A DNA stretch of 64,000 bases from Chloropicon primus. Lineage: Eukaryota > Chlorophyta > Chloropicophyceae > Chloropicales > Chloropicaceae. Below the pieces are notes generated by a model. That model did not search any database and was not told the DNA's origin. It worked only from the letters and a program-made list of their open reading frames with translations. This document shows positions 20,853-60,816 of the stretch, piece by piece. The position numbers and the translations under genes are program-made. The DNA is taken from positions 1,426,001 through 1,490,000 of the forward strand of contig CP060755.1 of assembly GCA_023205875.1 (NCBI GenBank). Direction: 5' to 3'. Every line of letters begins with the position of its first letter. The first letter of the stretch is position 1.

Positions 20853-21926
20853 TCAACAGCCCAACTTACAAAACTTGTCATCCGACATGGTCTTGTAGTA
20901 TCCCACGTGCATGTGGATGCAGGAGGGCGTGAGGCAGATGCTCTGACTGGCGGAGCACTCGTCGTCCTCGTTGTAAAAGCAAGTCGCGCTGAACCTGCAC
21001 TCCTCGTAGGGCAACACGTTGTTGCACTGGACGAAGCTGTAACCGTTGAGCCAGATCTCGATCCCGACGTGGTGGTAGCCCCTCATAAACGTCACCCCCG
21101 TGTAAGGAATGTGGGGCACGGGGTCCCTCTCATTGACGACTCTGAACGTCCTGCCCTTGAGGTTCAGCATCTCGTTGTAGAAGAATGCCCAGCCGAGGTT
21201 CCCCACCCTGGGAGCTCCGAAGGTGTACACCCTCTCCACCGGCAGACCGTTGTAGTTGAGGTCCGCGGCGGCTAGGGAGGCCAACGCCCCCCCGAGAGAG
21301 TGGCCGGTCACGATGAACGTCGCGTCGGGGTGCTTCGCCAGCAGCTTCGTCACGTAGTCCCAAGCGGCCTGCCTCAGCTCCTCCCACGCGTACATGAAGC
21401 CGTCCTCCAAGCGGATCGAGATGTCCATCTCATCCGGGGCCGTCGGCCAGGCCCACTCCATCGGCGGCTCGCTCATGGCGAACATGAAGTCGTCCACCCA
21501 GTCCCCCAGGGAGTCCCCTTGCGTGCCCTGGAAGCTCAGGACGACCGTGTCGTTCTTCGGGTAGTAAAGAACGAAAAACAATATCGGAGCCTTCTCCATG
21601 TTCCACAGGAGGGGCACGGTCGTGTTATAAGCCACCACGTCTGTCACATTGGGGTGCTCGATGACTTTCCGCCCCGAGTCCCACGAGTCTATGTTCGACA
21701 CGTTGCAGTAGGCCGCAGTGGCAAAGTAATAAATGTCCTTCGCGCGGTAGTACTCGAAGGTCAGGTTGCCCGCATCAGTGTTGTTGTTGAATTTCGACTG
21801 CGCGTGCCTCTCATCCCTCCCCCAGAACGCCGCGGGGGTGAGCCTCACGCCCCCGCTGCACCACACCAAGCCCAACAGGCACGACAGGAGCAACGCCTGC
21901 ACCCTCGTACTCCACCACGTTCTCAT
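20853..21926 (-). CDS. Secreted class-3 lipase
   Basis: Fungal-lipase-like (class 3) triacylglycerol lipase, 357 residues, no intron. The signal peptide is evident: VQALLLSCLLGLVWCSGGV. The nucleophile elbow is TGHSLGGALASLAAADL, with the upstream oxyanion segment VVLSFQGTQGDSLGDWVDDF; APRVGN and ERDPVPHIP carry the region of the catalytic Asp, and the His is probably in YHHVG. Several N-x-T/S sites and a Cys-rich C-terminus fit passage through the secretory pathway. Start chosen at MRTWWST just before the signal peptide; the open frame upstream is an Arg/Glu repeat. A minus-strand TGTAA lies about 65 bp after the stop. Confidence 0.93.
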   Translation of the reverse strand: MRTWWSTRVQALLLSCLLGLVWCSGGVRLTPAAFWGRDERHAQSKFNNNTDAGNLTFEYYRAKDIYYFATAAYCNVSNIDSWDSGRKVIEHPNVTDVVAYNTTVPLLWNMEKAPILFFVLYYPKNDTVVLSFQGTQGDSLGDWVDDFMFAMSEPPMEWAWPTAPDEMDISIRLEDGFMYAWEELRQAAWDYVTKLLAKHPDATFIVTGHSLGGALASLAAADLNYNGLPVERVYTFGAPRVGNLGWAFFYNEMLNLKGRTFRVVNERDPVPHIPYTGVTFMRGYHHVGIEIWLNGYSFVQCNNVLPYEECRFSATCFYNEDDECSASQSICLTPSCIHMHVGYYKTMSDDKFCKLGC

Positions 21927-22494
21927 AACACTCCTCACTCTCCAACCAAAAATAAGCCTATCCCAATCCACCGCTGCGCCACACCACACCCTCCGAGAAG
22001 TCCTCCCCCCTCTCCCTCGTCTCTCCCTCGTCGTCTCTCCCTCGTCGTCTCTCCCTCGTCGTCTCTCTCCCTCGCTCGCCCTTTCGCGTTTCGCTTCTCC
22101 TCCCTCTCCCACGAGCATCTTTTTTGAAGATTAGGAGATGAGGATCTTGGACACGTAGGACAATCCCCCTTTTTCGCCCTCGTTGAAAGATGCTGGGGTA
22201 ACTGAAACCGCTCCCACTTCTTCTTCTTCTCCACTCGTTTGCCCTCGTAGCCCACGGTTGCTTGTTTTTGTGGGCAGTGGCAAAAAGCATCTGAGGCTTG
22301 CGAGACATGCCGCTCGCGAGCGAGGGTGAGAAACCCTCCCTCCCTCCCCTCAGGCTCGGTGAGAAGAGAAGAAGCGAACGGAATAACTAATGAATGGTTT
22401 TTGTTATGTTATTGCACAATTGTTACAAATAAAGGGGGGGTTACGTTCCCGCGGGGTGTTCGGAATCCCCCCCCTCTCTCTCTGGTTGTTCTGG
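21927..22494. other. Spacer with a CTCTCCCTCGTCGT tandem repeat
   Basis: 568 bp between the secreted lipase and DRC3, both on the minus strand. About 22008-22080 is a tandem array of CTCTCCCTCGTCGT units. The DRC3 poly(A) signal TGTAA is at 22427-22423 on the minus strand. No gene is seen. Confidence 0.5.
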
Positions 22495-24042: not shown

Positions 24043-24594
24043 ACTTTCTCTTCCTTCTCCTCCCTCTCTCGCTCTTCCTTCTCCTCCCTCGTTCTCCACG
24101 AGACTCTCTCTCTCTCTCTCTCTCTCTCTGAGCCGCCTAAGGCTAAGGTCTCCTCCTTGTAGTCCCCTGGTGTTGCGTCGTCTCCTGCACCTTCACCTTC
24201 ACCTTCGCCTCTTGATGCCCTTCACCTTGCTCCCGTCGCCATGGACAGAACGCCTCAACGACAACGACTTTCTTGGAACCACCACCACAACACACAATCA
24301 ATCGGTCAACTGGCAAGCGTGAATTCCAGAACATTTCCGGAAACGTTGTCGGAGCGAGGAACGAGGAGGTGAACGAGGGAAGGAGAGCGAGGAGGACCTT
24401 CGTCCGTTCATCCGTTCGTTCGTTCGTTCGCGTGGGACCCGGGGGCGTTGAAGGCGGTTGGGGGTGGGAGGGTACTACGACGTCAAAATCATAATCGTAT
24501 CCCCATCCCCCCCGTTCGTTCGGTCAACTCCGTTCGAGTGTTTGGTGTCCCTCGAATTTGTGGATTGCGAGGAGGTTTGGAGTGCGTGGAGAGG
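24043..24594. other. Divergent spacer between DRC3 and a C2-lipase
   Basis: 552 bp containing a CT dinucleotide run at about 24102-24130 and GTTC repeats near 24412-24430. The two genes point away from it. No gene is recognised. Confidence 0.45.
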
Positions 24595-26148
24595 ATGTTG
24601 GGGACGAGGAGTGTGTTCCCGGCGGGCACACTCGTCGGGGGGGCCGTCACGGCACACCCTCGGAGGGGAAGAGGGAGTCTTCGGGGCCAACGGGGGAGGC
24701 GCGCGAGGTCTCTGGCCGGGGAAGGGCCCACGACATCAGAAGCAGCTTCAGCAGAGTTAGATCCGGCGCTTGCCTTGGCGCTGGCGGGTCACGCCTTCTT
24801 CGCGTACAAGGAGCCGTCCCAGCACGTGTTGAAGGATAGGGTCGGGACGGATGATTCGCAGACCGACTTGATCTTTCTGGACAAGAACTACGTGCTGCGA
24901 GGATTCGCCGGGAAGCTCAAGGTCACGTCGCTCGCAGCGCACCTTCCGGGTGCCGAGAGGAAGAGCGAAATCTTCTTCGCGCTGTCCATTGGTGGTGACG
25001 TTCACAGCACGGCGTCCTGCAAAAAGTTGAGGGGAGGGGAGATGCACGGCTGGGACGAGGAGCACGAGTTCCTGCTCAAGTCCACTGGGGACAACAAGCT
25101 TCAGGTGCGAGTCTGGAAAAAGAGATTTCTCCGGCCAGATGAACTTTTGGGCGTCGCCATCGTCACGCCCGAAGCGTTTGCGGAGGGGGCGAGCTTGGAC
25201 CTCCCCCTGAGGGGTGGTTCGATCGAGGGCTCTGTGCTCGTCGAAACGGAATACACGAGTTTCGATGTCCTCGAGGACGTGCAAGAGCACAGTTCTCAGA
25301 TGATTCTGGATTTGATCGGAATCGAGCAAGCCCCTCTCCTCCACATGAACTTCAAGCCCGCTTGCTTTTGTACCAACGAGGTTACTGACACGCAGGCGTG
25401 GATATGGTGGAACGAACCTGCAAAGGAAGTCCTGGTGTCCTTCAGAGGGACGGAGCAAACTCAGTGGAAGGACTTGCTGACGGACGTGAAGGTGCTGCCG
25501 ACTTCCGTGAACCTGGAGGGAGTAAAAAACGTTCACATCTTTGCGAATTCGAGCGAAGTGATGGTGCACAACGGGTTCCTCACGGCGTACCTGTCTATCA
25601 GAAACTCGATCCTGTCGCAGCTCAGAACGCTCATTACTCCGGCCGGGAAGGAAGAGGAATGGACAATCTTCATCACCGGCCACTCGCTGGGAGGGGCCCT
25701 GGCCACCATTCTTGCCTACGAGTGCGCCGAGGCCGATCTTGGGAAGATCGTGGTGTACACTTACGGCTCCCCTCGTGTGGGCAACGAGGCCTTCGTGAGC
25801 GACTTCCACAACTTAGTTGATTCGTCCTGGCGGTTCTCAAACGTTTCGGACATCATTCCGACCGTCCCCCGGTTTTTGGGTTACAAGCACGTGGACAACT
25901 CGGTGAGAATCTGCGAGGACGGCACCGTGCAGGTCCTTGACGACGAGAAGGATGTGATCGGCGAGACTCACTTCACAGAGATTTTGGGCGTCGAGGATCT
26001 CCCCGAGGTGGAAGAGCTCCTGCAGAAAGAGCTAACGCTGCTGTCGACTCTGATCGACGGCACGGCGCTCCAGGAGCACATGGAGGACAACTACCTGAAG
26101 AATCTGCTGCTGCTGGCGGCGGCGTTACGGAGTTCAAGTGATTTGTAA
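24595..26148 (+). CDS. C2-domain class-3 lipase, probably plastid-targeted
   Basis: 517-residue class-3 lipase, no intron. The first about 50 residues are Arg/Gly/Ala/Ser-rich with no acids until late, like a chloroplast transit peptide. A C2-like domain follows (LKVTSLAAHLP, then FALSIGGDVHSTASCK and LQVRVWKKRFLRPDELLG). The lipase domain carries VLVSFRGTEQTQWKDLLTD, the nucleophile elbow FITGHSLGGALATILA, YGSPRVGN, and SNVSDIIPTVPRF with the likely catalytic Asp; YKHVDN probably supplies the His. Galactolipid or triacylglycerol hydrolysis in the plastid is inferred from plant relatives. The stop lies within a TGTAA and another TGTAA follows at 26156-26160. Confidence 0.9.
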   Translation: MLGTRSVFPAGTLVGGAVTAHPRRGRGSLRGQRGRRARSLAGEGPTTSEAASAELDPALALALAGHAFFAYKEPSQHVLKDRVGTDDSQTDLIFLDKNYVLRGFAGKLKVTSLAAHLPGAERKSEIFFALSIGGDVHSTASCKKLRGGEMHGWDEEHEFLLKSTGDNKLQVRVWKKRFLRPDELLGVAIVTPEAFAEGASLDLPLRGGSIEGSVLVETEYTSFDVLEDVQEHSSQMILDLIGIEQAPLLHMNFKPACFCTNEVTDTQAWIWWNEPAKEVLVSFRGTEQTQWKDLLTDVKVLPTSVNLEGVKNVHIFANSSEVMVHNGFLTAYLSIRNSILSQLRTLITPAGKEEEWTIFITGHSLGGALATILAYECAEADLGKIVVYTYGSPRVGNEAFVSDFHNLVDSSWRFSNVSDIIPTVPRFLGYKHVDNSVRICEDGTVQVLDDEKDVIGETHFTEILGVEDLPEVEELLQKELTLLSTLIDGTALQEHMEDNYLKNLLLLAAALRSSSDL

Positions 26149-32515: not shown

Positions 32516-32911
32516 CCCCTGACACCCACACCCACACACAGACACACGCAGACACACAGTCACAGGCACGCTCACGCGCTCACGCACTCACGCAACGCGT
32601 CCCCCGCCTCCCCACTGCTTCCCAAGGCAGTCGTGGAGGTTCCACCCAAGTGCCACGCGTTTCCAAATGCCTTGCGCAGCAGAACTCCGAACCCCCGTCC
32701 TGATGCTGAGACATCGTGTGGATCCTCGCTTGAGATGCCGCGAGACAGGCGCGAGATGCTTTAGTTTAAGACGTTGGGAAGAAGAGACGAGAGTCCTCTT
32801 TCTTCGGAAAGAGAGACCGGCTTGACCTAGCTTGGTTTTCGTTTGCGTTCGAACGCGGGGTGGCGACAGGCGAGACGCGCGCGCGCGCGGAGAAGAGTTG
32901 CAGTCGTCGCG
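32516..32911. other. Divergent spacer between IPMK and the PPCS-HMG gene
   Basis: 396 bp with ACACAC-type repeats near 32521-32565 and a GCGCGCGC run at 32877-32889 just before the PPCS start. No gene is recognised. Confidence 0.45.
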
Positions 32912-34258
32912 ATGTCGTCGGTCGACTGGATCCGGTTTCAGGGCCACTTCCCTCCTGATTTGCAGGAAGGGAATTTCACGAACAACGCGATGAACCACTT
33001 GCAGGGCTTCTTGAGCAACCGCAAGAAGTCCGCGAACACGAAGTGGGCCTGCGTGACGTCCGGAGGGACGGCAGTTCCCCTCGAGAAGAGGTCGGTGAGG
33101 TTCATCGAGAACATGAGCAAGGGGACCCGGGGGGCACGCTCCACCGAGCAGCTCCTCGACTTGGGGTACAGCGTCATCCTGCTCGTGAGGGACGACGCGG
33201 AGATGCCCTTCGGCTCCCTCCTCGCGAGCAACAAGGCGTGGCACGAGGTGGTGCAGAAGGAGAAGAGCGCGAGGTCCGCGGACACGGACCTGAAATTCAA
33301 GGACAAGTACCAGGACAGGATCTCGGAGAACTTCAAGAGGCAGCAGAAAGCGAAGAAGCAGGAGAAGCTCCTGGTGCTGAAGTACAGAGACGTCTTCGAG
33401 TACATGTGGCTCCTCCACTGCGTGGCCCTGGAGCTCTCGAGCAAGGGGAACAGGGCGCTTTTCTACCTCGCCGCCGCGGTCTCGGACTTTTACATCCCGT
33501 GGCACAAGCTGGCCGAGCACAAGATTCAGTCCCAAGCCGGCACCCTGGCGCTCGAGTTGGAGAACGTCCCGAAGGTGCTCGGCCTCCTGACGCGGGAATG
33601 GGCCCCGCAAGCCTACTGCGTCTCGTTCAAGCTGGAGACGGACCCTGACCTTCTGTTAAGCAAAGCCCGGGGAGCCCTCCAGCAATACGGGGTCCACCTC
33701 GTGGTCGCGAACGAACCTCACAATAAGGCGAGGAAGGTGACGGTTGTGGGAGCAATGGGGGAGCAAGAGGAGATCCAGTTCACGCCTAAAAACAACTGCA
33801 TCGAGGAGCCCCTCGTGGAGCTCGTGGCCCAGAAGCACTCGGTGTTCTTTGGCGAAATCATCAAACCCCAAAGGCCCAACATCAAATTGGATGGGCAGAG
33901 CGAAGGGACGTACGATTACAACAAGAGGAAGGCTGCTGCGGAGATGCTGCCGGAGGATTGCAAGAAGGCCCTGAAGAAGAACAAGAAACCCAAGAGCACG
34001 AGCGATGGAATCACTGTCCCGAAGAGAGCGAAGACGGCTTACCTGTACTTCTGCGAGGAGAGAAGGCCGATCATGAAGAACAGCAATCCTGGTTGGAGCA
34101 TGGTCAATATCACAAAGGAACTCGGGACTGAGTGGCAAGCCTTGCCAGGTGAAGAAAGGAAGAAGTTCGAAGATTTGGCCAAGAACGACCAGCTTCGATA
34201 TGAGATGCAAAACGAGGCCTACCTCGGTCAGCTTAGAACCAAAGCCATGTCCATGTAG
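32912..34258 (+). CDS. Phosphopantothenoylcysteine synthetase fused to an HMG box
   Basis: One continuous 448-residue frame. Residues about 1-320 are eukaryotic-type phosphopantothenate-cysteine ligase (CoA synthesis, step 2): [52 protein letters not shown] and [15 protein letters not shown] Lys-rich linker ([12 protein letters not shown]) leads to an HMG box at about 369-437: [19 protein letters not shown], then [18 protein letters not shown] and [18 protein letters not shown]. The HMG box is a DNA-bending domain. No stop or splice site separates the halves. Whether the protein is nuclear, and whether both halves work, is unknown. TGTAA follows at 34302. Confidence 0.93.
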
Positions 34259-34358
34259 AGGGAGGGGGGTGCGGGAGAGTGTACGAATTAACCAGAGCTT
34301 TTGTAAGTCTTTTTCTTTTTACAATTAGCACGCCTTAGACGAGGTCCTCCTCAATCCA

Positions 34359-57752: not shown

Positions 57753-58110
57753 CCTGCACCACCCTCTGGTACAATCCAACCAGGTTCAACCCAAGCCAAG
57801 CCCATCGGTTGCGCCCTGGCTGACCAGGACCGAAGGGAGTTGCGTAGACTTCCTCGATGCCAAGACGCTTGCGACTCGCCACGATCCCGACCCCAGGGTT
57901 GGTTTCGCATCGTCTCGTCCTCCTTAAAGGAGGGGCATCTCCCCTGCAGCCTCCTGGCCTCAACTTCGGTCTTCAAGTTACCCCCCAATGGGATAGCGAG
58001 CCCACCTCGATTTTCTTTTCGTTGAGGAGAGGGTCGGGGTCGGGCGAGAGGAGAGGAGAGGGTTTGAGCACAAGGGTGTGTCGGAGAAGGCAGAGGAGAA
58101 GCAGGGGAAG
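57753..58110. other. Divergent spacer upstream of HYOU1
   Basis: 358 bp between the monooxygenase and HYOU1. The frames crossing it on both strands are compositional. I did not find a clear heat-shock or UPR element by eye. Confidence 0.4.
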
Positions 58111-60816
58111 ATGAAAGGATTGAGGGTGGTGCTGGTGGGGCTCTTGGCCGTGATGGCCATGGTTGGGGTCGCCCAGGCCAAGCTCCTTGCTTTCGATATG
58201 GGGAGCGACACGACGAAGATCGCCTTGGTGAAACCTGGGAGGAGTCCCGTGAGCCTGGTGACGAACGAGATGTCGAAGAGGAAGACGCCGACGAAGCTGG
58301 CTTTCAACAAGGGGGCGAGGCTCTTCGGGGAGGCCGCTGCCGCGATTGAGCAGCGGTACCCGCAAAACGTTTTCTCCCGGGTTCGAGACGCCCTTGGGCA
58401 GACGGGCGAAAGAAAGTCCGTGTACGAGGGCACTTACAGGCCATACAAGCTGACGGAGGAGAAGGGCGAGGTCCTTTTCGAGGTCGAGAACGGAGACAAG
58501 TATTCGTCCGAGGAACTCACGGGAATGCTTCTCGAGTACTTTGCGGGACTTGGATCCGACTTTGCGGAGAGCAAGGACCGTTTGAAGGACGTCGCCATCG
58601 TGATTCCCTCCTACTTCGGGCTGAAGGAGAGGATCGCCCTCGTGAACGCCGGTAAGATTGCCGGGATCAACGTCCTCGGCTTCATCAACACCGCGTCTGC
58701 TGCGGCCCTGCACTACGCGAAGGACAAGGATTTCGAGGAGAACTCGGAGGAAATCATTTTCTTCAACATGGGCGCGGGGTACACGGAGGCCGCCCTCGTC
58801 AAGTTCTCGTCCGTCAAGGAGACGAGGACCTCCACTTTGATCACGAAGGTCGAGGTCTTGGAGCAAGCTTACAACGCCGACGTTGGCTCGGAGGCGTTTG
58901 ACCTGAGGCTCACCGACTACTTTGCGGACAAGTACATGGAGGAGAAGAACGTGGATTTGAGGAAGTTCCACAAGTCCATGTCCAAGCTCAAGTCGGCCTG
59001 CAAGAAGACCAAGGAAGTGCTGAGTGCGAACACGGCCACGCCAGTGAATGTGGAGTCCATCTTCGAGGACGACGACTTGAGGGAGAAGATCACGAGAGAG
59101 AAGTTTGAGGAGTTGGTCAGCGGCGAGATTGAGAAGGCGACTAGGCCTCTGCAAGACTTGTTGGACAAGACAGGGGTCAAGGTGGACAGCCTTAAAGCCG
59201 TGGAGCTGATCGGCGGTGGCGTCAGGGTTCCAGCTGTGCAGAAGAAGCTGTCTGAAATTCTTGATGGCAGGAAATTGGACAGGCACCTTGACGGTGACGA
59301 AGCGGCCGTTATGGGCGCGGCCCTCTTTGCGGCAAACTACAGCAAGTCCTTTGTTCTCAAGAAGATGCAGCTCTACGAAAAGTTTCCATATAAGCTCGAG
59401 GCGGAGGTGGAGAAGAAGCATATGTTCTCTACTGAGACTGTCAAGCTTCCGGATCTCTTGCAGTTCCCCAGCCTCCCTGCTACTGTGCCCATCAAGGTCA
59501 ACAACCCGAAGAAGGAGGACTTCAAGTTGAACATCAAGTATTCTAGCGAGGATCCCTTGCCTCCAGGAACCAAGCAGCACTTTCTGTCCTCTTACGAGAT
59601 CACGGGGGCTGGCAAGACAGACAAGGAGAAGTACAACGTGACGGATGTCACGACAGCTTACTTGACGCTTGACGTCCATGGTTTCCTCGCGATGGAGTCC
59701 CCCGTGGCTACTGGCGACTACTGGGAGTATTTCAACAAGACTATCCAGGTCCCTGTCAAGGGTCTTTCTGGTGCAGAGGAAGAAGATAAGGACGCTACGG
59801 ATGAGATCGAGAGTGCCACGGTAGAGGACGACAAGGGCGAGAGCAAGGACGCTGACTCCTCTGAGGAGACCAAGGCAGACCCCGAATCCTCGGAGGAGGC
59901 AGAGGCAGAAGCAGAGGCAGAAGCAGAGGCGGCAGAGGCAGCGGCGGAGATAAAGTTCAAGGACAAGGTCGTGAGAAAGCGCAAGAGGAGAAAGGAGGTG
60001 TTCAACCTGCAATCGAAGTGGCTCAATCCAGAGGATTTCCAGGTCGAGAAGGCCTACATCAGATTCAGAGCCGAGCGTTTGAGGAACCTCACCAAGGCCG
60101 ATGACTTGAGGCTTGTCACCGAGGAAGCCAAGAACAAGTTGGAAAGCTTCATATTGATGACGATGTCCCAGTGCAACGACGAGGAGGTCGAGGCAGTGAG
60201 CACGGAGCCAGAGAGGGAGAAGATCAAGAGCGAATGCATGGAGGCGGAAGACTGGCTTTACTCCGATGGAGAGAACGCTGACTTGAAAGAGCTGAGAGCG
60301 AAGTACGCGGAGCTCGACACTTTGTACGAACCTGTTGCCACGAGGCTGTACGAGAAGGAGGAGAGGCCAGAGGCCATCAAGAATGCTCAGGCGAAGCTCC
60401 AGGACTACAAGAAGGGCTTGAGGGAGTGGGAGGATAAGAAACCATGGATTCCGTTTGAGCAGCTTATGAACGTTACTTCCAAGTGCGACGATATGCTTGA
60501 CTGGCTCGACGAGAAGATGCAAGCGCAGTCCGGTCTCAAGGACTACGAGGACCCAGTTTTGAAGAGCACTGACATCGAAGCGAAACTGAAGGCAATCACT
60601 AAGGAGATCAAGAAGCTTCAGAAGATTCAGAAACCCAAGTCTCATGCTGCGAAGCTCGAGCCCGAAGCCTCCGCTGACGCCGAAAAGGAACCAAAGGCTG
60701 AAGAAGAGGCCAAGGGCGAGGAGGCCAAGGGTGAGGAGGCCAAGGGTGAGGAGGCTAAGAGCGGGGGTGAGGGCGACGCCCCATCCGAAGTCGAGTCCTC
60801 TCACGAAGAGCTATGA
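58111..60816 (+). CDS. ER HSP70 co-chaperone HYOU1/GRP170/LHS1
   Basis: 901 residues, no intron. Signal peptide MKGLRVVLVGLLAVMAMVGV then the HSP70 nucleotide-binding domain (LLAFDMGSDTTKIALV, AVELIGGGVRVPAVQKKL), a substrate-binding domain interrupted by a long acidic loop (GESKDADSSEETKADPESSEE and repeated Ala-Glu), and an extended helical lid. The last 50 residues have four GEEAK-like repeats and end SSHEEL, an ER-retrieval signal. GRP170 proteins are exchange factors for BiP and holdases in ER folding. Start at the ATG just before the signal; a GTG lies 11 codons upstream. The stop overlaps the end of the convergent glycosyltransferase gene. Confidence 0.95.
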   Translation: MKGLRVVLVGLLAVMAMVGVAQAKLLAFDMGSDTTKIALVKPGRSPVSLVTNEMSKRKTPTKLAFNKGARLFGEAAAAIEQRYPQNVFSRVRDALGQTGERKSVYEGTYRPYKLTEEKGEVLFEVENGDKYSSEELTGMLLEYFAGLGSDFAESKDRLKDVAIVIPSYFGLKERIALVNAGKIAGINVLGFINTASAAALHYAKDKDFEENSEEIIFFNMGAGYTEAALVKFSSVKETRTSTLITKVEVLEQAYNADVGSEAFDLRLTDYFADKYMEEKNVDLRKFHKSMSKLKSACKKTKEVLSANTATPVNVESIFEDDDLREKITREKFEELVSGEIEKATRPLQDLLDKTGVKVDSLKAVELIGGGVRVPAVQKKLSEILDGRKLDRHLDGDEAAVMGAALFAANYSKSFVLKKMQLYEKFPYKLEAEVEKKHMFSTETVKLPDLLQFPSLPATVPIKVNNPKKEDFKLNIKYSSEDPLPPGTKQHFLSSYEITGAGKTDKEKYNVTDVTTAYLTLDVHGFLAMESPVATGDYWEYFNKTIQVPVKGLSGAEEEDKDATDEIESATVEDDKGESKDADSSEETKADPESSEEAEAEAEAEAEAAEAAAEIKFKDKVVRKRKRRKEVFNLQSKWLNPEDFQVEKAYIRFRAERLRNLTKADDLRLVTEEAKNKLESFILMTMSQCNDEEVEAVSTEPEREKIKSECMEAEDWLYSDGENADLKELRAKYAELDTLYEPVATRLYEKEERPEAIKNAQAKLQDYKKGLREWEDKKPWIPFEQLMNVTSKCDDMLDWLDEKMQAQSGLKDYEDPVLKSTDIEAKLKAITKEIKKLQKIQKPKSHAAKLEPEASADAEKEPKAEEEAKGEEAKGEEAKGEEAKSGGEGDAPSEVESSHEEL

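Follow-up and report, generated by a model that had tools for sequence, protein, structure and literature searches.

Chloropicon primus, a minute marine green alga, very probably carries a genuine gene fusion, in which a Lys-rich linker connects the only phosphopantothenate-cysteine ligase (PPCS) detected in its genome (17,584,162 bases in 20 contigs) in frame to an HMG box of HMGB-like type; the box probably arose as a copy from another HMG gene of its subfamily. The gene is located in the window analysed here, a 64,000-nucleotide stretch of contig C2 (C2:1426001-1490000), and coordinates without a contig name refer to this window. Our best view is that the PPCS is genuine and probably works, and that its HMG tail is intact. 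Each half is ordinary, while the pair is, to our knowledge, undescribed: no relevant report pairing phosphopantothenate with an HMG box was found in the open PMC literature, where PMC4788957 uses both words in unrelated contexts in its available text, and within that literature the first-pass annotation, which knew of no described protein with this pair, was right. The gene is composed of the following features:

32912..34258, plus strand: whole fusion ORF of 448 aa (PPCS, Lys-rich linker and HMG box), supported by translation without an internal stop, Pfam and the coding score
32912..33040, plus strand: N-terminal 43 residues, located 5' of the first conserved PPCS motif and outside the phmmer match
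33041..33856, plus strand: PPCS catalytic domain, residues 44-315, matching human PPCS (7edz/1p9o) and yeast Cab2 in phmmer
33857..34018, plus strand: linker, residues 316-369 (54 aa, 13 of them K or R), with neither a GTRAG donor nor a pyrimidine-rich AG acceptor
33923..33979, plus strand: stretch resembling a bipartite nuclear localisation signal (NLS), residues 338-356; weak, as its pattern also occurs in linker shuffles
34019..34222, plus strand: HMG box, residues 370-437, with HMGB1 and NHP6A as nearest relatives; supported by Pfam, genome scan, AF2 and Foldseek
34223..34255, plus strand: C-terminal tail of 11 residues, inside the gap-free alignment with a paralogue at C2:1257 kb
34302..34306, plus strand: TGTAA, putative polyadenylation signal found by motif search, 44 nt 3' of the stop

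Translation of the frame gives 448 codons and a stop with no internal stops, and the first-pass annotation, which had read both domains, PPCS and HMG box, as complete in a single frame at exactly these coordinates, is borne out by translation, Pfam and phmmer. In the ORF list the frame stays open upstream to a TTG at 32843, corresponding to 471 aa; the ATG at 32912 is assumed to be the start. An open frame of 448 codons was found in none of 5000 first-order Markov sequences built from the window. The 133 codons 3' of the PPCS domain stay open in 110 of these 5000 sequences, so that the evidence for this last part is its domain match and not its openness. A coding score trained on the six ORFs next to the gene gives this frame, in bits per codon, 0.32 for the N-terminus, 0.37 for the PPCS domain, 0.41 for the linker, 0.29 for the box and -0.01 for the 11-codon tail; the true frame outscores the other frames (best of six) in all five segments and is positive in four, and the lack of coding bias in the tail codons counts against our best explanation. 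Third-position GC passes from 0.89 in the PPCS part to 0.69 in the HMG part, the six neighbouring ORFs spanning 0.68-0.90. A misassembly or a repeat copy is rejected as far as possible, since a DNA search finds the fusion gene in a single copy in the genome and the assembly is telomere-to-telomere according to the available text of its authors (PMC12301720).

The homology of the fusion to eukaryotic PPCS extends across the whole catalytic domain. In phmmer searches against PDB sequences, residues 44-315 match human PPCS (7edz, 2.1e-50; 1p9o, 5.7e-50), and yeast Cab2 is matched in two stretches (7.7e-45); the Pfam DFP family (PF04127) is found above its cut-off at 1.5e-17. The PPCS segment shares 38-39% identity with the monofunctional human (1p9o/7edz) and yeast Cab2 (6ai8) enzymes and retains four of their motif blocks, including TSGGTxVPLE, a block starting with VRFxx, and SFKLETD. 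Among the 115 aligned columns that are identical between human and yeast PPCS, 78 are kept in the fusion and 37 are changed; the changes include D66E and F68M, which adjoin the conserved Asn and count against our best explanation. A search of the open PMC literature returned no paper dealing with the active site of the human enzyme; bacterial CoaB is treated in PMC7794376. In contrast to the human and yeast enzymes, the fusion possesses 133 additional C-terminal residues, including the HMG box. It is not joined to a decarboxylase: the sole flavoprotein match of the genome, a PPCDC-type gene, sits on C13, and the NCBIfam CoaBC model reaches only 58.2 bits on the fusion against a cut-off of 219.7. 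A full-length single-sequence AF2 model had a pLDDT of 38 and was left unused. On the strength of the sequence, the PPCS part is probably a ligase-active enzyme.

CoA is essential. Genome-wide, PF04127 matches two stretches at E values up to 1, both within the fusion gene, and no second PPCS was found in the C. primus genome by protein and DNA searches, of which the six-frame search can miss intron-split or divergent copies. As the sole PPCS locus found, the fusion must supply the CoA of the cell, unless a divergent copy was missed, and since CoA is indispensable it should be catalytically active, provided that no divergent or intron-split PPCS escaped detection. The remaining pathway comprises one PANK gene, which is fused to an ARMT1-like domain, CoaE, present as two stretches of one locus, and four stretches matching CTP_transf_like, of which C10:126231, judging by its motif, looks like a short PPAT-like cytidylyltransferase. 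The domain scan covered the PPCDC frame (236 aa) and, for the PANK frame, 906 of 935 residues without finding an HMG box, and none of the HMG matches in the genome falls on the four other CoA-pathway loci.

A search with the whole fusion protein of viral and genome contig collections, both without eukaryotes, returned no relatives. A three-sequence PPCS alignment had no match in the viral contig collection and two partial planctomycete-labelled loci, with 34-35% identity, in the genome contig collection. These MAG contigs (L043 and L044), with their partial relatives of eukaryotic-type PPCS, could represent bacterial homologues or mis-binned DNA. According to PMC12301720, published genomes exist for two strains of C. 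primus and three of C. roscoffensis.

The C-terminal part belongs to the HMG-box superfamily, based on a Pfam HMG_box match (PF00505, residues 370-437) of 8.2e-17 and 61.8 bits, well above the curated cut-off of 25.4, and on the predicted three-helix fold of the AF2 model for residues 357-448 (mean pLDDT 90.6), which was built from an alignment of this segment with 13 further boxes of the same genome. The box ranks fifth of the 24 HMG matches in the genome scan, with 66.8 bits. Using the model, Foldseek returned a single match at E values up to 0.001, NHP6A (8.3e-4, 40% identity), and the phmmer search with the fusion matched HMGB1 at 4.2e-15. The solved relatives of the box itself are HMGB1 (1.2e-17), NHP6A (9.5e-14), TFAM (6.6e-10) and, as the best SOX protein, a match at 5.5e-5; this distance between the best SOX and HMGB1 led us to reject a sequence-specific SOX-type box. 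With HMGB1 and NHP6A rather than SOX as its nearest relatives, the box would be expected to bind DNA without sequence preference. It resembles HMGB1 box B and yeast NHP6A in both sequence and predicted fold, and Tyr377 and Met397 are hydrophobic residues at the two DNA-wedge positions, as in HMGB/NHP6. The net charge of +2 is the joint lowest among 18 C. primus boxes, the highest of which reaches +10, and compares with +4 for HMGB1 box B and +7 for box A, residues 350-448 of the fusion carrying +9; the low charge of the box mildly weakens the case for strong DNA binding. HMGB-type proteins are small chromatin proteins consisting of one or more boxes and an acidic tail. The box of the fusion is HMGB-like, but the fusion protein is not an HMGB protein: it is linked to a metabolic enzyme, and its 11-residue tail is without an acidic residue.

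The closest paralogue of the box is box A of a gene that combines an Agenet-like domain with two HMG boxes (C2:1257 kb, L034), which lies on the same chromosome at a distance of about 200 kb. The match has 46% identity over 82 gap-free residues and reaches the last residue of the fusion, the similarity thus spanning the tail as well. In the paralogous gene no enzyme domain was found, and its Agenet match lies under the Pfam cut-off. In the multiple alignment the paralogue is 42% identical to the fusion box, and the other 12 rows are 16-29% identical. The in-genome box tree, constructed with 18 of the 24 genome matches (excluding two partial C4 stretches, the second box of C2:1257, C2:93423, C5:10978 and the second box of C13:207), also pairs the fusion with this paralogue at weak support (83/36); as nine of its 13 inner branches are open, only the pairwise match is relied on. 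The simplest route to the fusion would be the copying of a segment of such an HMG gene onto the 3' end of the PPCS gene, and 46% identity suggests that this event, or the split of both lineages, is not recent.

Among the five HMG fusions whose partner domains were scanned, most other listed HMG loci having been inspected as translations alone, PPCS is the only metabolic-enzyme partner; the four others all have chromatin- or nucleus-type partners. One of them, a further unusual HMG fusion, is a 1205-aa frame on C9 (C9:335432-339049; L032 933-4550) that encodes four HMG boxes, three of which are identical across the 78 residues compared, and after them a WD40 domain; among PDB entries this domain is closest to telomerase Cajal body protein 1 (TCAB1; 1.8e-64). 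On C20 (L033 222-2912), the dimerisation domain of the CAF-1 large subunit (CAF1A) and an HMG box share one frame, and on the minus strand of C4 at 994 kb (L026) a single 347-aa frame combines BAH, PHD and an HMG box.

The upstream neighbour of the gene, an IPK ORF, is divergent, and the downstream ORF is convergent, ending 100 bp past the fusion stop, so that the whole frame is probably under a single promoter region. Four of eight control gene ends (two of the eight being ORFs without a Pfam match) have TGTAA, the polyadenylation signal of green algae, at a distance of up to 120 nt, against 4.5% expected; its absence from the fusion ORF is unremarkable alone, about 0.5 occurrences being expected. 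Elsewhere in the window, two class 3 lipase ORFs are found within 6 kb (20853-22118, minus strand, and 24448-26148, plus strand), and a frame of 943 aa that runs antisense to an HSP70 gene (57973-60804, minus strand, and 58078-60816, plus strand) shows a Pfam NAD-GH match of 1.4e-15, probably the HSP70-antisense artefact for which that family is known.

A splice or a stop between the two domains, which the first-pass annotation had named as the outcome that would undo the fusion, has left no signature in the linker: a scan of the linker for a stop, a GTRAG donor, a pyrimidine-rich acceptor and TGTAA found none of them, and its single YAG is without a pyrimidine tract, whereas an intron of this genome deduced from the two exons of CoaE reads GTGAGT ... 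TTTTTTTTTCCCGCAG. The locus might still give two products through splicing, early polyadenylation or an internal start at Met345, with the fusion as the minor form. Met345 lies within the linker and has a purine at -3, the PPCS part carries two GTRAG donors (codons 62 and 92), and introns are found in 36-37% of C. primus genes (PMC12301720, Table 1). We consider two products very unlikely, given the linker just described, the absence of an in-frame stop, a coding frame that the coding score finds unbroken, and the fact that a separate HMG promoter would need to sit inside the PPCS coding sequence.

The NLS-like stretch of the linker was considered as positive evidence for a nuclear location and rejected, since shuffled sequences match as well: the bipartite pattern appears in 373 of 2000 linker shuffles and in 717 of 2000 shuffles of the whole protein. 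It also occurs in three of six control proteins from the window (ELMO-, lipase- and ion-channel-type), and it was found neither in the PPCS part alone nor in the PPCDC and PANK frames.

What the box does for the enzyme is a separate matter, and two accounts of it are compatible with a real fusion. The product of PPCS, 4'-phosphopantothenoyl-cysteine, is three enzymatic steps short of CoA and small enough to diffuse, so that tethering the enzyme gains nothing obvious; together with the weak charge of the box and an NLS-like motif no better than shuffles, this is what would be expected of a neutral accident, in which the tail is tolerated without a selected role and the protein is mostly cytosolic. 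PPCS can tolerate a C-terminal addition, as Ppc1 of Schizosaccharomyces pombe, tagged C-terminally with GFP and expressed from its native promoter, runs as one band and is seen throughout the cell (PMC3472395, section 3.12). The box nevertheless scores fifth of 24 in spite of only 46% identity to its closest paralogue, and if the box is as old as we assume, it would be expected to decay when unselected; a neutral accident, the other option named by the first-pass annotation, is possible, though we hold it to be rather unlikely.

The other account, a selected chromatin function in which a chromatin-held PPCS supplies or senses the nuclear CoA pathway, seems improbable to us. It draws on the temperature-sensitive S. 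pombe mutant ppc1-537, in which histones H3/H4 are poorly acetylated and the DNA is fragile (PMC3472395), on mammalian PanK1alpha and human PanK2, which are found in the nucleus and for which a role in sensing CoA there, not in making it, was proposed (PMC3496714), and on the chromatin- or nucleus-type partners of the four other scanned HMG fusions. The effect in S. pombe needs no tether, however, Ppc1 being distributed over the whole cell (PMC3472395). The two kinases are like the proposed chromatin-held PPCS in being CoA-pathway enzymes with a nuclear presence, but they reach the nucleus through a short NLS, not a DNA-binding domain, and act at a different step of the pathway; the enzyme activities downstream of PanK are cytoplasmic according to the same authors (PMC3496714). 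The other CoA loci have no HMG match, and the charge and NLS evidence is weak. Local CoA production on chromatin is less likely because three more enzymes have to act on the PPCS product, which can diffuse, and because the downstream activities are cytoplasmic. The idea in the first-pass annotation that the fusion places a CoA-making step on chromatin, near acetyl-CoA users, thus finds no support: the product is diffusible and three steps from CoA, no other CoA locus has an HMG match, shuffles reproduce the NLS-like motif and the box carries a charge of only +2.

For the genuine fusion that we favour, the PPCS part would make 4'-phosphopantothenoyl-cysteine for the entire cell, and the HMG part would probably bind and bend DNA without sequence preference. 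The fusion protein may reside partially in the nucleus, and as DNA binding by the box would not be sequence-specific, the share of the enzyme entering the nucleus would sit only loosely on chromatin. That the only PPCS of C. primus, and with it the cysteine-adding step of the CoA pathway, is held on chromatin by the enzyme's own HMG box, acting there as a supplier or as a sensor and tying the state of chromatin to CoA status, is distinctly doubtful. If true, it would represent a physical link between CoA and chromatin where other eukaryotes show a merely metabolic one. An organism whose one PPCS has an HMG box attached would in any case offer a natural test of whether chromatin is affected by where a CoA-pathway enzyme is located. 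Should the box be neutral, the gene would still show clearly how an HMG box can end up on a housekeeping enzyme of a compact genome.
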